From contig JAIXWR010000045.1 in assembly GCA_027491155.1 (NCBI GenBank), forward strand, positions 1 through 64,000: a stretch of DNA of 64,000 nucleotides. Reading direction: 5' to 3'. This document shows, in pieces, positions 51,927 through 64,000 of this stretch. The stretch is from Verrucomicrobiaceae bacterium. GTDB taxonomy: Bacteria > Verrucomicrobiota > Verrucomicrobiia > Verrucomicrobiales > Akkermansiaceae. Position 1 is the stretch's first letter; every line of letters starts with the position of its first letter. The position numbers and the translations under genes are program-made. The notes under the pieces are model-generated. The model was not told the DNA's origin, did not search any database, and was given only the letters and a program-made list of their open reading frames with translations.

Positions 51927-52131
51927 GGGTGCAAGGGCTACGCTTCCTTGCTGAGCCCGCGCCAGCATTTTCCGCTAACCAAGTCCGGCTGCGCGGAATA
52001 GAATGGAGAGGTTCGCTTGGGTGTCGCAAATCCGGACTCCAACGGCATTTGCCGCGGGTCGATCAAAGAAAACAACCCTTGATGCGCCAACCGATCCTCC
52101 ACCCGCGACCAGCCCGGTAATTCCTGAAAAA

Positions 52132-55100
52132 ATGAAAACCCATCCGCTTCTTGGCGCAATTCTCGCCGCCATGGCCTTGGCCATCCTTCCAGCTTCGGCC
52201 GCCACCGTGAGCGCCAGCGCGGCAGCCCCCGTGATCGACGACGAGGACATCTCCAATTTCGCCTCGCAGACCGCCACCGACAAGTGGTGGCCCGAAAACA
52301 CCGCCGCCGGGGCCGCCAAGGGCCAGACGTTCCGCACCCGCAACGAGGCCCTCCGGTTCAAGGCCGTGACCTACCGGATCACTACCAACGTTCCCGGGAC
52401 CAAGGTTTACACCATCCGCATTGGCAGGATTTCCGGCAACACGTTCACCCCGGTCTATACCGAAACCGCCACCCAGACTGCTACTTGGGCCGCGAATAAT
52501 CACGTCACCTGGCGGCTTGATACTCCTTTCATCCTGCAGCCGAACACGTTTTACGGCGTGGACGTGGCGCTGACGAGTTCCACCACCACGTGGCAGCAGG
52601 GCATTCCCTATATCTCCATGACGGCGGACGAGTTTTCCGATGGGGTGAGCTATGGTTCCGGCACCAACGGCGTGGGAAATACGACGATCACCGCCGGCGA
52701 TGACGACCGCCGCTTTCATCTCGACATCGAGAAACCCATCGGCGGCTGGTCGCTCGTCGCCACCCACCCGGCGGACAATGCCACCAATGTCTTCGCCTCG
52801 AATCCGCTCTTGGCCACTTTCAGCCAGAACATCGTGCGCGGCACCGGAAACATCACCCTCAGAAATCTCACGGACAACACCAGCATCGTCATTCCCATCA
52901 CCGATCCGCGGGTCGTGATTTCCGAGAACCTGCTCACGGTCAATCCCGGCAGCGGTTTTGTCGCGAGCAAAGCCTGGGCCGTGCGCATCGACCCCACCGC
53001 CATCACCAGTGCTCTCGGCGATGCTTATCCCGGCATCGCCAACGACACCACTTGGAACTTCAGCACCGGCTTGGGCGACCCGCTGTTTCTCGCGCTCGTC
53101 GCGCTCAGGAACCACATCACCGGAGCCACCCCGCTCACGGCCGCGCAGATCTCCGCGCACAAAACGACCATCGATCAGCAGAACGCCCGTCTTGCCGACA
53201 GCGCCGCACTCATCACCGCAGCGTTCGACTTGGTGAGGGCGTACGACGCATCCACCGGAAACCGCTGGTATGTCAACGGCCTGCCCGCCCGTGCTTCCGT
53301 CACCAACGATATCCACTGGACGCTTTGGAACGTGCAGCAATACATCATGGACGTGGTTTACAACGAGACCATACTCGCAAACCACGAGAGTTTGCTGAAC
53401 GGTTTCAAGTTCGGCAGCGCTTCAACATTCCCCGGCGCATGCAACCCGCCGGCAAATCCGGCGGACACCACACGCACCGTGACCATCAAGGCCAGCTACG
53501 CGAATACGGTGGGCTGGACGACGCAGGGAGATGGCAGTGGCACTTTCGCGCGCAAACCGACGGGCTGCTATCTAGCGCCCGGGTCGATTGCCACCGTCAC
53601 CGTGCCGGCGGCATTGGTGGGCAAGGGCTTCAAGATCCGGGTCGGCGCGCACTCGTGGGATTTTTCCAACAAACCCTCGATCAAGCGACTGGATCGTTCG
53701 ACGGTTCTCTATCCCATCAACGCAGTGGAAACCAAAGTCGCCTGCCCGCATGGCGGCGGCATCTACATCGAGGTGCCATGGCTCGCCAACCAGGGCAATG
53801 TGAACGTGTCCGTGCGCAATGCCGTCCGCTCGCCCTACTTCTCCGCGAAGAGTTTTCACCAGACGACGTCGGCGGAATGGCTGGCCGAACGCACCAACCC
53901 CGGGCCTTGGGCGGATTTCCAGTCGGACAAATTCATGATGCAGGTGCCAAAGAGCTGGATCTACGCGATGCCCGACCCGACCCAGGTGATGAAGGATTGG
54001 GACGCCGCGATGGATGCCTTCAACGACCTGCTCGGCTTTCCGCAGATCCGCGGCAAGGAATCCTTCTACCTTCAGGCCGATGTGCTGATTCGCGCTTCCG
54101 TCTTCGCACCGGGCTATCCGGCCGTGAACGTCGGAGGCTTCAGTGCCACGGCCAATTACAACAACGGCTATCATACCCACTATCTGATCCGGGGTCCGCA
54201 GTATGGCATCGATGACGCGCAGGTGGAGTTTCACGAGCAGGGCCACGGCTACTTCTTTGACAAGTTTCCCGGCGAGACCGAGTCGAACGTGAACCTGCCG
54301 TTTGTGCCCGTCCTGCACCGGAAATTCGGGGTCAATCTGGACACCGCCTTCCGGGCGTCGCTGGGCGAGGGCAATACCTACCGCACGCTGGAGACGACTG
54401 CGATGGCGTGGATGACCGTGTTCAATTTCTCACCGAACAAAGTCGAGATGGCCGATGGAGAAAAAGCTTACCAGCTCAAGGGCCACGCGAAGTTCGTGGA
54501 CATCGCCCGCATCTACGGTTGGGGCGTTCTCGGCAACTACTGGAAGTCCTTCGTGACCGATTCCGAGAATGGGATCAATTACGCGACGGACACGGATAGC
54601 CTCCTGCTGCGCTTGTCCAAAAACGTGGGCGCGGACATCCGACCCTTGTTCCACTTCTGGGGCATCTACCCGCAGAACGCCACCAACTTGCGCAATGCCA
54701 TCAACACTGCCGGGCTCGTCGCGCCTGTGGAAATCTACGACCGGCTCGTGCGTTACAAATCCCTCGCGCCGGCCAACAATACCGCCTTCCGGGACTTCGC
54801 CACCAAGTGGTGGACCCGGCAACCCAGCTCCAGCGGTTTCTGGGAGGAGCGCGAGCACGCCACCCAGTGGAACAACTACAATGAGAATTCCGCCCTCGGC
54901 ATCACCAACCGGGTGCAGGAACTCCTCGACCTCTACTACCCGAACGGCCGCCCCACCACCATCACCGGGCCCGTCGTCGGAAGTTTCAGCCCCACCGACA
55001 ATTCCACGAGCGTCGCTCTGGACGCCAACCTGGTGGTGACCTTCAACAAGGCAGTCGTTCGCGGCACGGGCAACATCACGCTCAGGAACCTTACCGACGG

Positions 55101-57363
55101 CACCTCCACCAACATCGCCATCACCAACACAACCCAGGTTTCCATCGCTGGCGAAGTGATGACGATTAACCCAACGGCGAATCTTCTCCCCAACAAAACG
55201 TATGCCATCCAAATCGATCCAACGGCGCTGGATGGCGTGGTCACCAACAGTTTTGCCGGGGTCACCGACACCACGACCTGGAACTTCACCACCATCACCC
55301 CACCACCCGCTGGCGTGACTGGCCTCGCCCTGTGGCTGGATGCCTCGCAGCTCACGGGCTTGAGCGACGGGGCCACGCTCAATACTTGGAACGAAATGTC
55401 CGGGCTCGGCAATCATGCCACAAGGACTACCGGTGCACCCACCTATGAGACCAATGAACTTAACGGGCGACCGGTCGTGCGTTTTCCCGTTGGCAACGGA
55501 GCCAGCTTTGGTTTTCCACGCATGACCAACATCCGCACGGTTTTCTGGGTGATGAAACAGCAGAACCCAGGCGAACTGCGGTTCTTATTGGGTGACACTT
55601 CCAATTTCCATTTTCATCGTGGCACCGCTTCTCCCTCGACGATCTGGCATTCCGTGCATACTTCGTCCAATATCAGAAACGGCACGACAAGCTTGAACGG
55701 ACTGGCCGTCAATGGCACCACGACCAATTTGCCTGGCGGTTGGAATTTGCTCTCGGTGACAACCACGGATGTCGTCACGGCCAGCACCCTGAGTAGCGAT
55801 CGCACATTCAACCGATCCTGGGAAGGCGACATCGCTGAGGTTCTCGTTTACAACAGAGCTTTAAGCGCGGTTGAGATCGAACAGGTCGGCAGCCATCTGA
55901 CGGCAAAGTATGCCATGACCACCGCCTATGCCGCGCCCTTGATCTCCACTTACAGCCCCGACGACGACGCGACCGGCGTGGCCATCGACGCGGACCTTGT
56001 GGCCACTTTCAGCGAACCCATCGCCAAGGGCACCGGCAACATCACGATCAAGAACCTTACGGACGGAACGACCACAAACATCGCGGTGACCGATTCCCAA
56101 GTGACGGTCTCGGGAGTAACCCTGACGATCAACCCGACGGCAGACCTCATAGCCGGAAAAAACTACGCCATCCAGATCGCAGCGACCGCCATTGATGACC
56201 TCGCCGGGAACAGCTTCGCTGGCATCACCAATGACACCGCGTGGAACTTCGAAACTGAAGCGCCGACGCCCGTTTTCGTCATGTTCGCTGACAACTTCGA
56301 CCGGCCCAACAACACAGGCCTGAATGCCTCGGCCATCGGCAAGTCGGGGTCACTTGGTGCGTTGAACTGGGTCGAGAAGGCCGGCTCTGGCGGAAACGCG
56401 TCAATCTCGGGCAATTCGCTCTTCGCCACCGGCTCCACCAGCGGCTTCTCCATGTCTTATGTCGATCACAACTTCATCAATGCCTCAATTTCCAGCGGCG
56501 GTGGCTTCAGCATCAGCATCGACCTCGAGCATTACTCGACGCAGGGCACCGTGCGACTCGCCGGGATTGCCATGGGCATGTCGAAAGCCGAGGCAGAGGG
56601 ATGGGCGCATAACGTTCCCACCAGTTTCACTTACGCGGATTTGTTCGTCGGCTACCGCGGCAATCAAAGCGCGATCCAGGTTTTCGAAAACGGAACCGAA
56701 GTGATCAACAATGCGACCGCAGGGGATGCATCCACGCTCCCGAAGAAGCTCAAGATCGATTTTACCTGCTCGGACTTCAATGCCGGCTCGACGGTGAACT
56801 ACAAGGTCAGCTTCGGCGGTGCAGCGATGGGCTCCGGATCATTCACATGGAGCGGCACCAACGAGAACTACATCGGAGTCTATTCCAACTTGTTCCCTGC
56901 GAGCGGCACGACCGGTCAATTGGACGATTTTGCTGTTAGCGCGCTGGTTCCCGAGCTCTCGTCCTACGAAACTTGGGCCGCCACCAACACCCTTGGCAGC
57001 ACTCCGGAGGAGGACTTCGACAGCGACGGCGTGCCCAATGCCATCGAATTCGTGCTCGGCGGCGACAGGAACACCAACGACCTCGGCAAGCTCCCCGCCG
57101 CTGCCACCAATGGCGGCAACATGACCTTCACCTTCGTGCGCGACCGGGATTCGGTTGATCCGGGCGTGAGTGTCGCGATCGAAGTCGGCCCCAGCCTCGG
57201 CACATGGCCGAATGTCTTCACGGTGGGTCCCAACACCGCCGGCTCCTCAGCCGGCGTCACCGTCAGCGATAATGGCAACGGCACCGACACCATCACTCTA
57301 ACCGTTCCCCAAGCGCCGGACACCAGGAAATTCGCCCGGCTCAAGGTGGCCATCACGGAATAG
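52132..57363 (+). CDS. Large secreted M60-like metallopeptidase with three SbsA/Big_5-like Ig domains, LamG-like domain and TSP3-like C-terminal module
   Basis: Signal MKTHPLLGAILAAMALAILPASA; HEXXH in VEFHEQGHGYFFDKFPGETESNVN; three copies of RGTGNITLRNLTDG(T)...I.PTA......AGI.NDTTWNF; C-term DFDSDGVPNAIEFVLGGD...RKFARLKVAITE. Confidence 0.88.
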   Translation: MKTHPLLGAILAAMALAILPASAATVSASAAAPVIDDEDISNFASQTATDKWWPENTAAGAAKGQTFRTRNEALRFKAVTYRITTNVPGTKVYTIRIGRISGNTFTPVYTETATQTATWAANNHVTWRLDTPFILQPNTFYGVDVALTSSTTTWQQGIPYISMTADEFSDGVSYGSGTNGVGNTTITAGDDDRRFHLDIEKPIGGWSLVATHPADNATNVFASNPLLATFSQNIVRGTGNITLRNLTDNTSIVIPITDPRVVISENLLTVNPGSGFVASKAWAVRIDPTAITSALGDAYPGIANDTTWNFSTGLGDPLFLALVALRNHITGATPLTAAQISAHKTTIDQQNARLADSAALITAAFDLVRAYDASTGNRWYVNGLPARASVTNDIHWTLWNVQQYIMDVVYNETILANHESLLNGFKFGSASTFPGACNPPANPADTTRTVTIKASYANTVGWTTQGDGSGTFARKPTGCYLAPGSIATVTVPAALVGKGFKIRVGAHSWDFSNKPSIKRLDRSTVLYPINAVETKVACPHGGGIYIEVPWLANQGNVNVSVRNAVRSPYFSAKSFHQTTSAEWLAERTNPGPWADFQSDKFMMQVPKSWIYAMPDPTQVMKDWDAAMDAFNDLLGFPQIRGKESFYLQADVLIRASVFAPGYPAVNVGGFSATANYNNGYHTHYLIRGPQYGIDDAQVEFHEQGHGYFFDKFPGETESNVNLPFVPVLHRKFGVNLDTAFRASLGEGNTYRTLETTAMAWMTVFNFSPNKVEMADGEKAYQLKGHAKFVDIARIYGWGVLGNYWKSFVTDSENGINYATDTDSLLLRLSKNVGADIRPLFHFWGIYPQNATNLRNAINTAGLVAPVEIYDRLVRYKSLAPANNTAFRDFATKWWTRQPSSSGFWEEREHATQWNNYNENSALGITNRVQELLDLYYPNGRPTTITGPVVGSFSPTDNSTSVALDANLVVTFNKAVVRGTGNITLRNLTDGTSTNIAITNTTQVSIAGEVMTINPTANLLPNKTYAIQIDPTALDGVVTNSFAGVTDTTTWNFTTITPPPAGVTGLALWLDASQLTGLSDGATLNTWNEMSGLGNHATRTTGAPTYETNELNGRPVVRFPVGNGASFGFPRMTNIRTVFWVMKQQNPGELRFLLGDTSNFHFHRGTASPSTIWHSVHTSSNIRNGTTSLNGLAVNGTTTNLPGGWNLLSVTTTDVVTASTLSSDRTFNRSWEGDIAEVLVYNRALSAVEIEQVGSHLTAKYAMTTAYAAPLISTYSPDDDATGVAIDADLVATFSEPIAKGTGNITIKNLTDGTTTNIAVTDSQVTVSGVTLTINPTADLIAGKNYAIQIAATAIDDLAGNSFAGITNDTAWNFETEAPTPVFVMFADNFDRPNNTGLNASAIGKSGSLGALNWVEKAGSGGNASISGNSLFATGSTSGFSMSYVDHNFINASISSGGGFSISIDLEHYSTQGTVRLAGIAMGMSKAEAEGWAHNVPTSFTYADLFVGYRGNQSAIQVFENGTEVINNATAGDASTLPKKLKIDFTCSDFNAGSTVNYKVSFGGAAMGSGSFTWSGTNENYIGVYSNLFPASGTTGQLDDFAVSALVPELSSYETWAATNTLGSTPEEDFDSDGVPNAIEFVLGGDRNTNDLGKLPAAATNGGNMTFTFVRDRDSVDPGVSVAIEVGPSLGTWPNVFTVGPNTAGSSAGVTVSDNGNGTDTITLTVPQAPDTRKFARLKVAITE

Positions 57364-57827
57364 TCGCCCGCAAAGCGACTATCCTTCCATCATCCAAACT
57401 CCGCCAACATGTCCACCAGCTGAATGGCAGGGGATTGAGCGCCGTTTCGTTGAAGGCCGGCCGTCCGGTGAACCGCACCTCTGAGTCGGCGGGGCACACC
57501 CATCACAATTTGAATCTCAGGTTGAAGCCTGCCCTCCCTCACCTGTTCCCGCCTACACCGTGCCATTCAGACCCCGCGTGCTGATGGACGCCCACGACAC
57601 TGCGCCTAAAGCATTCCGCAGGAACATCGGGGAAATCAATGTTCCGAGGGAGAGAATCGATTGGGGGGCGGTTCGATTCAAGCCATACTTCGAACGCCCT
57701 GCTCGAGCGCCGTCCCGGATGACGTTCCGGGGTGGCGGCCCAGCCTGGAAGCAGCGGTCGATGCCATTGCTCGAGAACACGAACCGGAAATGTGAGTATC
57801 AAGCCCCAAATAGGAAGATCACCATCC

Positions 57828-59078
57828 ATGAAACTTCTCCATTTTGCCCCACCCGTCCTTGCCCTAGCCATCTGCGCCACATGGCTCGGTTCGCAGCGCA
57901 GCTCGATCGAGGACATGGAAGAGGAGAATGCCAGGCTCTTGGGAGAAGCCACACCGGCACGCGCATCATCCGTCTCCGGGGATGACCGGATCAGCGGAGA
58001 GACTTGGAGATCCCGATCCGGCGACTGGAAGAAAGTCGCTGCGGATCTAGGCGATCTCGAAGGTCGAGGTCAACTGCCTGACATGCGAGACACGAAGCGG
58101 CTCGAGCAGCTCATTCTGGAAATGGACGCACCCGGAATCATCGCCGCGCTTGGGGAAATTGATGCCCTTGAACTCCCCGACTCATCGAGGCGAGAGCTGC
58201 AGCGCATGCTGCTCGACGCCCTTGCCAGGAAGGATCCCGGGCTCGCTTGCCAACATTTCATCGAGAATGCCCATGGGCAGCCCGCCACACTCACATGGCC
58301 GATCAAACATGCCTTCGAAGCATGGCTGAAGCGCGACCCCGCCACGGCCAATGAATGGCTGGATCGGCAGCTCGCTGCGGGGACCTTGGACGGCAAGTCT
58401 CTTGATGGGAGAAACCCGATCCGCCTTCAGATGCAGGCGGCAAGTCTCTATTCCCTGATCGGATCGGACCCTGCCGCCGCGAGGCGCAGAATGAGTGACA
58501 TACCACTCGACCAACGCAGGGACATGCTTTTGGCATCGCACTACAGTGTGGTGGAGAAGGATCATGAAGCCTTCGCGGATCTGGTTCGGGGCAGCCTGCC
58601 CAGGGAGGATCAAAGCAAGGTTTTATCAAGCCAGCTCTCACTTTATGGAAATCAGGATGATCTGAAGAGAGTGAGCAGCTACCTGTCGCGCATCGATGCA
58701 ACGAAAGAGGATCGCGTCGCCTGCTTGGAGGTGGCCACCTTGAGTCTCTTTACCTTGATGCCCAGGGAACGTGAATTGACTCGCGAGGACTTCGATCAAT
58801 TTCACCAATGGGCCGGATCCATCGACCCGGAGTCTGCGGATAAAGTGACCGGAACCGCCCTTGCGGTCACCCTTTCGTCTGGGAAGAATGTGTCCTTCGA
58901 TGAATTGGCCGGTATCGCCTCCGATTACCATGGGGCAGGTGCCGGGGACGACATCCTCGTGGCGTTCATTGAGCAGAGTGTCGCCAACGAGAGCGTTTCG
59001 AAAGCCAAGGCCCGGGATGTCGCCATCAGAATCAGAGATCTTGAGCGGCGTGAGGAACTCCTTGAACAGCTGAAGTAA
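57828..59078 (+). CDS. Membrane-anchored helical-repeat protein, array type A (A1)
   Basis: MKLLHFAPPVLALAICATWLGSQRSSIEDMEEENARLL; EAWLKRDPATANEWLDRQL; DYHGAGAGDDILVAFIEQS; resembles 60498-61844. Confidence 0.8.
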   Translation: MKLLHFAPPVLALAICATWLGSQRSSIEDMEEENARLLGEATPARASSVSGDDRISGETWRSRSGDWKKVAADLGDLEGRGQLPDMRDTKRLEQLILEMDAPGIIAALGEIDALELPDSSRRELQRMLLDALARKDPGLACQHFIENAHGQPATLTWPIKHAFEAWLKRDPATANEWLDRQLAAGTLDGKSLDGRNPIRLQMQAASLYSLIGSDPAAARRRMSDIPLDQRRDMLLASHYSVVEKDHEAFADLVRGSLPREDQSKVLSSQLSLYGNQDDLKRVSSYLSRIDATKEDRVACLEVATLSLFTLMPRERELTREDFDQFHQWAGSIDPESADKVTGTALAVTLSSGKNVSFDELAGIASDYHGAGAGDDILVAFIEQSVANESVSKAKARDVAIRIRDLERREELLEQLK

Positions 59079-59088
59079 GCTTTTGCTC

Positions 59089-60381
59089 ATGAAGCCATCC
59101 ATCATCATCACCGCCATCACTCTGATCGTTGCCGCCACATTCGGTTGGCATCGCCACCAGGAAATCGTCAGCTTGCGAGCGGGAAATGCCAGGCTTGTCG
59201 AAGGAGCCGCCGCGCACGGCAAATCGCGAGATGGTGAAGGCGGCACACGGCACCGTGAGCGTCAGGATGAAGGCGCCTTGGCCGCGGAGTTCATCGCCCT
59301 TGCACGGGAAGGGGGAAAGCTCCTGGGAGACGGCGTCGGTGCCGATGCGGAAACCGCGCAGAGGAGCGTGGATCTTATCGATCGGATGATGAGGCTCAAC
59401 GCTCCGCAACTGGAGAGCTTTCTCGCCACGCTCCGGGCCGAGCCCGGAATCAACGAGATTGCACGCAAGGATATGCTGATGGACTGCGTGTTGGCGCTCT
59501 CCACCAGGAACCCGCGCGCCGGATTGGAACTCCTCATCCAATCGCCCGAACTACTGGGCGAAGGTTCGATTACCAAACAGTACATCGGGGAGTTGCTCGG
59601 GAACCTGGCGAAGGAGGATCCTCAGATCGCGCTCGAATGGATTCGTGCCAACAAGGAAGCGCATCCCGATCTTGTCACGGACGATCTCATCGCCTTCCTC
59701 GTTGCTGGAGTGTCAGCGAATGACCCGACACATGCCTTTCAGTTGCTTTGCGATGTAGAGCCATCGAAACACGTGGCGACGGTTTCAAAGATCATCGAAA
59801 CGGCGGCCAATCCCGCACAACGTGATGTGACGCTCACGGCGCTGAGGCGGTTCGCGGCGGCCCAACAGAACCCGCAGGTTTTGAAGGATGGCATCAGCGA
59901 CCTCGTTTTCGGTGGGGTCTACAAAGAACGGGGCTTCGAGGAGACGTCCAGTTGGCTCGCCTCCGTGCAGTTGTCAGGCGAAGAGCTGGCATCCGCCACG
60001 GGGAACATGGAACACCGGGTGAAACCCGAAGAAACGGCTCGATGGCTCGAATGGCTTGGCGCCAGCGGCTTGCCCGAAGAAGTCGTAAGGGATCGCGCCT
60101 ACAACCTCAGCGCGGAGTGGACGGAGAAAGACTACCAGGCCGCCGGCAAATGGCTCGCCAGCGCCCCCGATAGTCCCGGGAAATCCGCAGCCGTTGGTGC
60201 CTTCGCTGCCAAAGTGCATCCCTTCGAACCCGAGATCGCCATGCAATGGCTGGAAACCCTTCCGCGGGGCCCCGACCGCAACAAGGCGCTCCAGGCGATC
60301 CATCGAGGGATGCGGGAGAACAGGAGCTACGAGAAGGGTGCTGTTGACGCTTTCGCGCGAGAGCATGGCTTTTCAGAGTGA
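59089..60381 (+). CDS. Membrane-anchored helical-repeat protein, array type B (B1)
   Basis: MKPSIIITAITLIVAATFGWHRHQEIVSLRAGNARL; WTEKDYQAAGKWLASAPDSPGKSAAVGAFAAKVHPFEPEIAMQWLETLPRGPDRNKALQAIHRG. Confidence 0.8.
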   Translation: MKPSIIITAITLIVAATFGWHRHQEIVSLRAGNARLVEGAAAHGKSRDGEGGTRHRERQDEGALAAEFIALAREGGKLLGDGVGADAETAQRSVDLIDRMMRLNAPQLESFLATLRAEPGINEIARKDMLMDCVLALSTRNPRAGLELLIQSPELLGEGSITKQYIGELLGNLAKEDPQIALEWIRANKEAHPDLVTDDLIAFLVAGVSANDPTHAFQLLCDVEPSKHVATVSKIIETAANPAQRDVTLTALRRFAAAQQNPQVLKDGISDLVFGGVYKERGFEETSSWLASVQLSGEELASATGNMEHRVKPEETARWLEWLGASGLPEEVVRDRAYNLSAEWTEKDYQAAGKWLASAPDSPGKSAAVGAFAAKVHPFEPEIAMQWLETLPRGPDRNKALQAIHRGMRENRSYEKGAVDAFAREHGFSE

Positions 60382-60497
60382 TCCGAAAACACCATGCCAA
60401 GCTTTCCCCTCGCTTTGACGACTTTTTTGAATCCGGGACGAGGGCTTTAGCGAACCACTTGATGAAGCCGATCCTCCCCTCGGAATCTCAACAGAAC

Positions 60498-61844
60498 ATG
60501 AGAGTCGTTCACTACGTCCCGCCCCTCTTTGCGCTGATCATCGCTGCGGCATGGCTGACCAGCTTGCGGGCCTCGAATCGCGCCTTGGAGCAGGACAATC
60601 GCTCTCTTCAGGAGAAGATCGCGGAGTCCCGCAGTTCCCCGGGCTCTCGGGATGAGCGCGCCAGATCCGGTGCGAAAAGCGACAGAGCCAGCGCGAACAG
60701 CGCCAGGGCGAAGCGCGAGACGAAGCCAGCGGACGTTGAGGTCAAGCCCTTGTCCGAATTCAAGCCCACCGCCGGTGATTTCAACGAACTCGTCCTCCTC
60801 AACAACAATGAAGGGGTAAGATTCAATCTTACAGAAGCCTGTCGAAGGCTCGAAGCGTTGGCTTCCGAGATGAGTGGCGACGAACTCGTAAGAGCCTACA
60901 CGCAAATGGGCTCACTCCCGGTGGATGCGCCATTTCGCAATTACCTCGAATGGCTGATGCTGAACCAACTCAAGAAGAAGAATCCCGAGTTCGCGTTCAG
61001 CCAACTCATTGCGAAGTGCCAGAATGAAGATACAGGACCGATCAAGATGGGCGATTTCAATGAATGGCTCGCGAGGGATCCTTCCGCCGCCACGACCTGG
61101 TATGAGAACCAGCTCGAGGCTCAGGTCTTCGATAAGACCCTTGATGGAAAAACTCCCAACATGGTGCCTTTTGAAGCTGCATTCATCATGTCCTTGCTCG
61201 CATCCGACCCGGCCGCCGCGGAGCAACGCATGAACAATATTCCGCCCGATCTCCGCGCCAGTTTAGGTGATTACGTTTGGAAAGTCTCCAAAGAGAACAG
61301 CAAGGCTTTCGTTGAATTGCTTCGAAAATCAATGCCGATGGAAGATTATATCGCCATACTGAAGGACAACAGTCTGACGGAGTATCATTTCAGGTTCGAC
61401 AGCGATAGCGATCCCCAAGCTGTCCAGAAGAACCTTGATAGCCTCGGATTCACGCCTGAGGAATGCTCCACCCTTATGACGCAGCACTTTGCGGAGATTG
61501 CGAAGGCTCAAGCGATGAGAGACAAGTTCGGTATGCCGTCTCGCGAGAAATTCGACGAAGATCGCGCACGGATTCAGGCGATCGACCCTTCCTCCGCTGA
61601 CCGGGCAACAGGATTTGCACTCCAGAGTTACCTCGCGGAATCCAAGACGACCAGCGCACAGGACTTCGTCGAGAAGGTCGCTTTGGACTACCATGGTTCA
61701 GGTGCGGGAGACGAAATCCTGCTTCCATTGATTGAGGGCAGTGCGAAGGGGAGTATCCCTTTTCCGAAAGAAAGAGCGCGAGTGCTGGCAGATAAAATCA
61801 CGGATGCCAGGCTCCGTGAAGAGATGCTGCAAAAGCTCGATTGA
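60498..61844 (+). CDS. Membrane-anchored helical-repeat protein, array type A (A2)
   Basis: MRVVHYVPPLFALIIAAAWLTSLRASNRALEQDNRSL; NEWLARDPSAATTWYENQL; SADRATGFALQSYL; DYHGSGAGDEILLPLIEGSA; alternative ATG at 60462. Confidence 0.8.
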   Translation: MRVVHYVPPLFALIIAAAWLTSLRASNRALEQDNRSLQEKIAESRSSPGSRDERARSGAKSDRASANSARAKRETKPADVEVKPLSEFKPTAGDFNELVLLNNNEGVRFNLTEACRRLEALASEMSGDELVRAYTQMGSLPVDAPFRNYLEWLMLNQLKKKNPEFAFSQLIAKCQNEDTGPIKMGDFNEWLARDPSAATTWYENQLEAQVFDKTLDGKTPNMVPFEAAFIMSLLASDPAAAEQRMNNIPPDLRASLGDYVWKVSKENSKAFVELLRKSMPMEDYIAILKDNSLTEYHFRFDSDSDPQAVQKNLDSLGFTPEECSTLMTQHFAEIAKAQAMRDKFGMPSREKFDEDRARIQAIDPSSADRATGFALQSYLAESKTTSAQDFVEKVALDYHGSGAGDEILLPLIEGSAKGSIPFPKERARVLADKITDARLREEMLQKLD

Positions 61845-61847
61845 AGC

Positions 61848-63071
61848 ATGAAACATTCCCTTGTCATTTGTGCTCTCATCTTCACCTTCGCCGCTTTTCT
61901 GGGCTGGCGGGAGGAACAGCAGATTTCAAGAACCAGAGAGATCAATGCAAAACTGGCGACAGAAGCCGCGGCCATTCCCAACGAGGGTATCCAAGGGCCA
62001 ACGTCCTCTGTAGTCTCCGATAAACGCGTGGATCGGCGAAAAGAAGATCTCGCCATGAAGAAAAAAGTAAAAGCCCTCGTGAGCGACTATTTTGCCTTAT
62101 TGCGCAATGAGGATGAGGCATCCGCGGAAGAAATCGCCGCTTTGCGAGAGAACATCAAGAGTCGCCTGGAGGAACTCGACCCATCGGCGATCCGAGAATT
62201 CATGGGTGAATTCAGCAGCCTTCCCGGTGTGAACTCCGGGATGAAGAGTGACGTGAACGAGTACGTCATGAATGTTTTTATCAAGAAATACCCGGTGGAG
62301 ATGGCCTCAATGATGAGCAAGGCTCCCGAGCTCTTTAGTCTCAGTGGTCAATCCGTGCCCGAGAGAGTGATTTACGATCCGTTCAAGTTCCTCGTTTATT
62401 ACTATTGCTGGATGGAGAAGGATCTCCCGCTTGTTTTTGATTGCCTCGCAGAAGCATCGCCGGAATTTCAATCCAAATATATCAGTGGAACGTTAGAACA
62501 TTATGCGGATACCCCTCTTCGCCGAGCCGAGTTGTTCGAAGAGATGAGAGCCTTCGCCTCGACCCCGGAACAAGTGGATCTTGTGAGAGCTCAGATGAGC
62601 GATCTCCTCTTCGTGCGTCCCGACGCAAAGGTGACGTTCGTTGAGGTGTCCGATTTGCTCCAATCGGCGGATTTATCCAGTGATGAACTTGTCGCTGCCA
62701 CCAAGGGCATGGAGAACAAAGTGCGGGTTGGCGAAACGGGCCAATGGCTTGACTGGCTTAGGACGACCGGGATACCTGTCGAGATCGCGAAGGAGCGTGC
62801 TTTCGATCTCGCCGACCGGTGGACAGAGAAAGACTACCTCGCCGTCGGCAAATGGCTCAATAGCGCACCCGAAGGTCCGGAGAAGTCCGCGGTGGCGAGT
62901 GCCTACGCGGCCAAGACCTATCCTTACGATCCGGAGGGCGCCATGCAATGGATTGAGACCCTCCCTCAGGGGCCCGACCGGAACAAGGCACTGGAAACCA
63001 TCTATCAAGGTCTGCCGAAAGACAGTGATGAAGCAGAAGCCTTCGCGAGTGAGTTTGGCCTCGGGAAGTGA
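61848..63071 (+). CDS. Membrane-anchored helical-repeat protein, array type B (B2)
   Basis: MKHSLVICALIFTFAAFLGWREEQQISRTREINAKL; WTEKDYLAVGKWLNSAPEGPEKSAVASAYAAKTYPYDPEGAMQWIETLPQGPDRNKALETIYQGL. Confidence 0.8.
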   Translation: MKHSLVICALIFTFAAFLGWREEQQISRTREINAKLATEAAAIPNEGIQGPTSSVVSDKRVDRRKEDLAMKKKVKALVSDYFALLRNEDEASAEEIAALRENIKSRLEELDPSAIREFMGEFSSLPGVNSGMKSDVNEYVMNVFIKKYPVEMASMMSKAPELFSLSGQSVPERVIYDPFKFLVYYYCWMEKDLPLVFDCLAEASPEFQSKYISGTLEHYADTPLRRAELFEEMRAFASTPEQVDLVRAQMSDLLFVRPDAKVTFVEVSDLLQSADLSSDELVAATKGMENKVRVGETGQWLDWLRTTGIPVEIAKERAFDLADRWTEKDYLAVGKWLNSAPEGPEKSAVASAYAAKTYPYDPEGAMQWIETLPQGPDRNKALETIYQGLPKDSDEAEAFASEFGLGK

Positions 63072-63234
63072 CCGATCCTTGTGAGTCCATTTTCCAGAAT
63101 GCACGTTCCTGAGACTCGGCGTCGCTGTGTTCCGGAATCTTCCGGGGTCGTTTTTTCGCATAAATTTCCAAGGATTTCCCGGTAGCTGTGTCTTGATCTC
63201 GTGGGTCTTTTGCCGCCCAATAACTCATAGGCCG

Positions 63235-64000
63235 ATGAAATCCACGACCAACATTTGTCTCGCGACGCTGCTCATCGCCGCCGTGCCTCTTGGGTTGCTG
63301 TGGAAAGAAAACGCCTCACTCCGCGCCCGGATCGCCGCGCAATCCCCGGCTGCGCCGCCGCCCGCTGACGGGGAGCTGGCAAAGTCCGATCGCCGCGGAC
63401 CGATTCGCGTCGCAGGGACTGAGAAGCTGTCAGCCCAGAAGAGTGTGACCGGGGAGATCCAATGGAGGTCCGTTTTGGAAGATCCGGACCCCGTGCGCCG
63501 GGCGGGGCGTTTCTACGCCTTCGTCAGCAACATGACTCCCGAAAGCGCGCGGGCGGCGGCGGAGTCGCTGGAGGACATGCGCAACCGCAACGCGCTGAGC
63601 GACGACGAGTGGAGGCATTTTTTCCTCGGCTGGGGTGGCGTCGATGGAAAGGCCGCCCTTGCCTACTTGGATGCCGTACCGGAGAACTCCGCCGCCCGCT
63701 GGAAGAATCGAGAGGCGGCCCTCACTGGCTGGGCCTCTCGCGATGTGGCGGGTGCCCAAGCGTGGCTGAAAGATCATGTTACCAGGAGCTGTCACACGCG
63801 CAAAGACGAGCCCTATTTCGCGGAGGATCTCTTCAAAGCGGTTTCCGAGTGCATGCGAGTCACGGACGAGGACGCGGCGCGCGACTATCTGGTGGCGCAG
63901 ACGGTGGCGGGCCATGTGACGAACGCTGAGGCTGTCGATTGGATTGCAGGCGAATGGAATGATGCCGATGCCCATGACAAAGCGGCGACCCTGCTCGCCC
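63235..64000 (+). CDS. Membrane-anchored helical-repeat protein, fifth array member (type C), truncated by window end
   Basis: Open frame read directly from ATG 63235: MKSTTNICLATLLIAAVPLGLLWKENASLRARIAAQSP...ALTGWASRDVAGAQAWLKDHV...; no stop before 64000. Confidence 0.75.
   Translation, partial: MKSTTNICLATLLIAAVPLGLLWKENASLRARIAAQSPAAPPPADGELAKSDRRGPIRVAGTEKLSAQKSVTGEIQWRSVLEDPDPVRRAGRFYAFVSNMTPESARAAAESLEDMRNRNALSDDEWRHFFLGWGGVDGKAALAYLDAVPENSAARWKNREAALTGWASRDVAGAQAWLKDHVTRSCHTRKDEPYFAEDLFKAVSECMRVTDEDAARDYLVAQTVAGHVTNAEAVDWIAGEWNDADAHDKAATLLA

Follow-up and report, generated by a model that had tools for sequence, protein, structure and literature searches.

Membrane-tethered ECF sigma factors have been described before. 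In IutY of Pseudomonas putida (ECF243) and in the ECF48, ECF52 and ECF53 proteins, such as SCO4117, the ECF sigma factor carries a fused C-terminal regulatory part that is transmembrane (PMC8999054). ECF43-type sigma factors are activated by Ser/Thr kinases, as in the pairs EcfP-PknT and EcfK-PknS (PMC8999054). Both arrangements are thus already known. New here are a pair of solenoid proteins, A and B, and the fact that this pair has been joined to sigma factors repeatedly; the most surprising lead is a possible two-product design of the sigma-bearing genes. It seems probable that A and B are the extracytoplasmic sensory or regulatory pair of verrucomicrobial membrane-anchored ECF sigma systems, represented in the locus described here by sigma-less copies. 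The whole analysis was computational, and from it we infer the function of the pair.

The locus lies at 57828-64000, the end of the window, by which we mean the whole 64,000-nucleotide stretch of DNA that was analysed. An earlier note had reported five tandem genes on one strand at this place, and they are present, with the motifs it quoted:

A1, 57828..59078, + strand, 416 aa: N-terminal membrane anchor and all-helical solenoid; the sigma-less A type.
B1, 59089..60381, + strand, 430 aa: the partner of A, with a membrane anchor and helical solenoid (TTG at 59083 is a possible alternative start).
A2, 60498..61844, + strand, 448 aa: second A-type protein (earlier in-frame starts are possible at 60378 and 60462).
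B2, 61848..63071, + strand, 407 aa: second B-type protein, 3 bp beyond A2.
Fifth gene, 63235..64614, past the window end at 64000, + strand, 459 aa: divergent B type without its own A.

All five proteins start with a hydrophobic anchor, as expected from the proposed N-terminal transmembrane (TM) segments. The A-B unit is indeed present twice, A1 and A2 (31% identity) and B1 and B2 (34%) being true homologue pairs (35% in another comparison). The fifth gene is divergent, as had been claimed, but is not a third kind, as the B profile finds it (E 1e-20) and the A profile gives no match. The repeat motif is also there, but "recurring" overstated it: the strict form [DEN]P..A..W occurs only once or twice in each of the five proteins, and the repeat is more visible as predicted helix hairpins. 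As the A profile often matches B and vice versa, A and B are distantly homologous to each other. The array genes are under purifying selection, with dN/dS of about 0.2-0.37 against orthologues. Upstream of the array, window 52003-57363 encodes a large secreted protein whose HEQGH motif is metallopeptidase-like. Several scattered B-type relatives without a recognised A partner at loci L031-L036 and L038 of the same genome form a broad paralogous repeat family.

The note could name no characterised family, and Pfam, NCBIfam and PDB sequence searches agree. None of the array's five proteins matched a Pfam or NCBIfam family, an alignment of 16 A members had no Pfam match at E 0.01, B1 and B2 likewise had none, and these Pfam searches gave no significant match to the TPR, HEAT or Sel1 repeat families. 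The PDB sequence search returned no convincing relative of A or B, and weak matches (XPC-binding, DivIC, designed repeat proteins and similar) were discarded as family assignments. We found no description of an A-B family in the open-access literature. AlphaFold models of A and B (mean pLDDT 73 and 74, from input alignments of 5 and 4 sequences) have one N-terminal membrane anchor and an all-helical solenoid, with an N-terminal helix followed by helix hairpins; the stretch proposed as a coiled coil is drawn as a single long low-confidence helix. Foldseek against the PDB returned generic solenoids only (spliceosomal HAT proteins, importins, LGN TPR), with the periplasmic TPR-like proteins LbcA and AlgK low-ranked and TM-scores of 0.3 or lower, and we therefore read no function from these matches. 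A and B thus share an all-helical repeat fold with TPR/HAT/Sel1-like alpha solenoids such as LbcA, but differ from them in having neither a convincing sequence match nor a higher structural score.

We ran A and B HMMs on the predicted genes of the own-genome regions, 60 same-family regions around A matches and 20 control regions. A was followed by B on the same strand in 73 of 78 cases (5/5 in the window's genome and 68/73 in relatives), with a median gap of 3 bp and many 4-bp overlaps, and 71 of 73 B genes were preceded by A. The 20 control regions yielded no strong A or B, three of them having weak single matches. The A and B distance matrices correlate (r = 0.92 over 67 A-B pairs), a value that none of 2000 permutations reached (maximum 0.14). 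The adjacency counts and correlated distances show that A-B is a co-inherited unit well beyond the window, so the adjacency that the note saw here is conserved in other genomes. A 16-row A profile matched 50 of 289 genomes of the order, in three families, and in a sample of the phylum all 10 matches belonged to the family that the window comes from; sigma-TM proteins whose C-termini differ are spread across the phylum. Given the distribution of A-profile matches, A-B seems to have arisen within this order.

The link to sigma factors came from the relatives. Ten of their 73 A genes are sigma-TM-A fusions of 631-672 aa, with B next in every case and a common layout: an ECF sigma region at about residues 4-189, a TM segment near 235-260, then A. 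Five more have a sigma gene immediately upstream, giving 15/73 A genes with a fused or immediately upstream sigma factor, compared with 3 sigma genes among 339 control genes. We found 16 further fusions with B next in three families of the order (the window's and two others), of which 15 come from regions fetched largely for open-frame length and so give no frequency estimate; weak A matches in long frames, chosen by length, nearly all had the sigma-TM-A architecture. In 26 sigma-TM-A relatives, own-genome locus C19 included, an ECF sigma domain, a TM helix and an extracytoplasmic extension are in one protein. Sigma can also be fused to repeats of the B type, as in one 871-aa protein (L203:9769-12384) that combines an ECF sigma factor with several stretches of them.

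As the cytosol is where the sigma domain acts, and a single TM helix comes after this domain, the A solenoid of the fusions must lie outside the cytoplasm, which favours the periplasm-facing of the two orientations first considered. The free A proteins align from the same TM segment and should share this topology. In a tree of 61 A domains, whose deep nodes are weak and some of whose rows are very long, fused and free forms are interleaved and need 8-9 changes, suggesting that sigma and A have joined or parted repeatedly. Like IutY and the ECF52-type proteins, the fusions start with an ECF sigma, continue through a membrane helix and end in a regulatory part outside the cytoplasm, and those proteins offer a model of how the fusions may work. 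The fusions differ in that the extracytoplasmic part is a solenoid without a Pfam match and has a nearly constant neighbour, B. In addition, no zinc-finger anti-sigma was seen, and sigma domains are missing from the A proteins of the window itself.

Within 10 kb of four of the five A loci in the window's genome lies a sigma factor (p about 0.003 if the 5.7 Mb hold some 45 sigma genes, of which PF04542 accounts for 41 and the remainder allows for PF07638 types):

C14, the window array: ECF sigma and kinase (PF07638, PF00069).
C2: A in a sigma and kinase cluster.
C9, L030:8376-11983: ECF sigma, then a 575-aa A, then B.
C19: sigma-TM-A-like gene of 683 aa, then B.
C27: A alone, without a sigma neighbour.

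The 575-aa protein of C9 has a cytosolic N-terminus of about 115 residues, then a TM segment and an A-like solenoid. Its N-terminus has no Pfam or NCBIfam match, and we take it to look like an anti-sigma domain. The order of sigma gene and then a protein with a cytosolic N-terminus, membrane helix and solenoid recalls the FecR-type transmembrane anti-sigma factors. A1 and A2 differ from that type: they have no cytosolic anti-sigma domain and no family match, and A1 begins MKLLHFAPP right at the TM segment.

The note had proposed looking beyond 64000 for further members. The fifth gene ends at 64614 as a B type; what follows is a 300-aa protein whose start resembles a signal peptide, a DUF3592 protein and two regulatory genes:

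ECF sigma-Ser/Thr kinase pair, contig 66234-69857, side by side: a PF07638 ECF sigma (66234-66791, E 6e-46) and a Ser/Thr kinase with LRRs (66855-69857, PF00069, E 5e-44).

The link to ECF sigma factors and kinases lies outside the window, and the note hence missed it. This pair following the array is reminiscent of ECF43 loci, where a phosphorylated Thr replaces DAED; read by eye only, the downstream sigma has roughly DTCG (LDTCGLLHEAW), a degenerate acidic motif. In contrast to the ECF43 pairs, the kinase near the array carries LRRs and extra domains, and the review PMC8999054 does not mention A-B genes at such loci. The 300-aa protein (L002:9765-10667) and the post-TM region of the kinase (L002:11855-14857) have a related domain (LQGYWQ and LTGYWQAEM, phmmer E about 1e-11) with no Pfam name, and a 304-aa protein without a Pfam match (L002:14875-15789; L101:18037; L107:12266) recurs beside A-B and ECF-kinase genes in several genomes.

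Some relatives of the array itself have a sigma gene alongside. In L100, L101 and L181 a sigma-TM gene (515-525 aa) stands directly before the A2-B2 orthologues; in L101 and L181 (JAIPKB010000141.1, Akkermansiaceae) it has 515-519 aa. The order in L100 is A1'-B1'-120 aa-sigma525-A2'-B2'-A-B, flanked by a homologue of the window's large upstream protein. At 57300-64000 there is no sigma domain or sigma remnant beside A1 or A2; the TM segment alone matches. ABC-transporter genes, considered as a recurring A-B neighbour, were partly explained by closely related loci.

The sigma-TM genes have a second conserved feature. A Met lies shortly before the TM segment in 33 of 35 sigma-TM proteins, mostly by 3-9 residues, against a frequency of 0.33 in same-size windows elsewhere; in one A fusion that lacks it, a Val encoded by GTG takes its place. 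Free A proteins have their first Met at the position that matches this junction Met of the fusions. RNA structure is almost lacking in the 42 nt surrounding the junction Met (MFE -3.2 vs about -10); the called starts of free A and B gave -5.2 and -3.6. With the protein sequence fixed, synonymous codons were biased towards openness (z about 0.9), with a peak at the codon that was gone by 45 nt. Kinase TMs (n = 11) and other internal TMs (n = 21), handled like the sigma-TM genes in this TM-based comparison, had neither signal (Met 0.18 and 0.19; MFE -10.3 and -10.8). A second set of 43 sigma-TM genes, mostly of other families, repeated the pattern, with Met in 37/43, z of 0.66 +/- 0.18 at the codon and near 0 elsewhere, and MFE of -6.6 at the codon vs -12 to -13 upstream. 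In both sets the codon-bias window was centred on Met where one exists; the loci carrying the signal are L037, L100, L118, L137, L139-L143, L145, L146, L153, L194-L209 and L221-L268. No Shine-Dalgarno sequence was found at 24 junction Mets, but this is uninformative, as they are rare at called A (12%) and B (4%) starts too.

A conserved start codon and open RNA before the membrane helix suggest that one gene can make both forms. We found no description of an internal start in such sigma factors in the open-access literature. Verrucomicrobial sigma-TM genes may be two-product genes, an internal start giving a sigma-less membrane sensor beside the tethered sigma, and the window's free A the short product standing alone; we put this forward tentatively, at somewhat less than an even chance. 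An alternative is selection tied to membrane insertion of the sigma-TM helix.

It is the fusion or adjacency of A-B and sigma factors in relatives that makes the outside-sensing half of a gene-control system the most likely role for the pair. The model builds on observed pairing, fusion, adjacency and purifying selection. A and B would be co-inherited single-pass membrane proteins with large C-terminal helical solenoids outside the cytoplasm. In the plainest form sigma would be the N-terminal domain of A, with B following, and would be kept inactive at the membrane, to be released or exposed when A-B responds to an envelope signal. With a cytosolic part of only a few residues, the window A proteins would have to work via the membrane or the envelope. 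They might do so on a sigma encoded by a gene of its own, for which the downstream ECF sigma-kinase pair offers the nearest candidate, or by rivalling sigma-bearing A proteins for B or the signal. Against this sensory role count the sigma-less window A proteins, the three genes standing between B2 and the sigma and kinase genes, and the relatives' pairs, most of which have no sigma within five genes unless fused (16/73 have one); comparing regions, sigma presence is only marginally higher (23/60 vs 3/20, p 0.045).

Those free pairs, with the generic solenoids returned by Foldseek, would equally fit a structural or assembly scaffold of the cell envelope, to which some lineages added sigma as a stress sensor and whose window copies are non-regulatory. 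We think this unlikely, as the interleaving of fused and free forms makes them look interchangeable rather than one late side branch, and a sigma factor is near most A loci of this genome. A more specific version of the sensory role is that free A proteins are competitors, replacing sigma-bearing A at B or at the signal and so damping those systems. Free A starts where the part of the fusions after the junction Met starts, and the same genome has the sigma-TM-A-like gene at C19, but A1 and A2 are very distant from that fusion, making direct cross-pairing doubtful, and we rate this option, too, as rather unlikely. Sigma factors often control adjacent genes, and neither A nor B of the window has its own cytosolic domain, so A-B could be regulon members, outputs of the neighbouring sigma factors and not regulators; direct fusion of sigma and A is hard to explain if A is merely an output, and this seems improbable.

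The ancestry of the array bears on the note's own interpretation. A1 has an orthologue 77% identical in L179 and another, its tree sister L100_9910, at 56%, while the tree sisters of A2 (L100_4777, L101_15428 and L103_9236) are about 75% identical. As these figures exceed the identity between A1 and A2, the two are not recent local duplicates but old paralogues with separate orthologues elsewhere, both units being old before they became neighbours here. Hence the note's independent two-protein module of unassigned role, multiplied by recent unit duplication, is scarcely credible despite the two tandem units here and further tandem A-B arrays in L112, L113, L118 and L134, since for this array the tree contradicts such duplication. 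The note's observation is confirmed and its interpretation partly supported.

With A-B most probably the sensory half of ECF sigma systems, a nameless gene cluster becomes a testable signalling system, in which paired unrecognised extracytoplasmic solenoids are tied to membrane-anchored ECF sigma factors. Genomes of Akkermansiaceae and their relatives often carry several copies of the A-B family. Should the internal start prove true, a single gene would compactly encode both a membrane-tethered transcription factor and a counterpart of it that lacks sigma, a design that seems widespread across Verrucomicrobiota.
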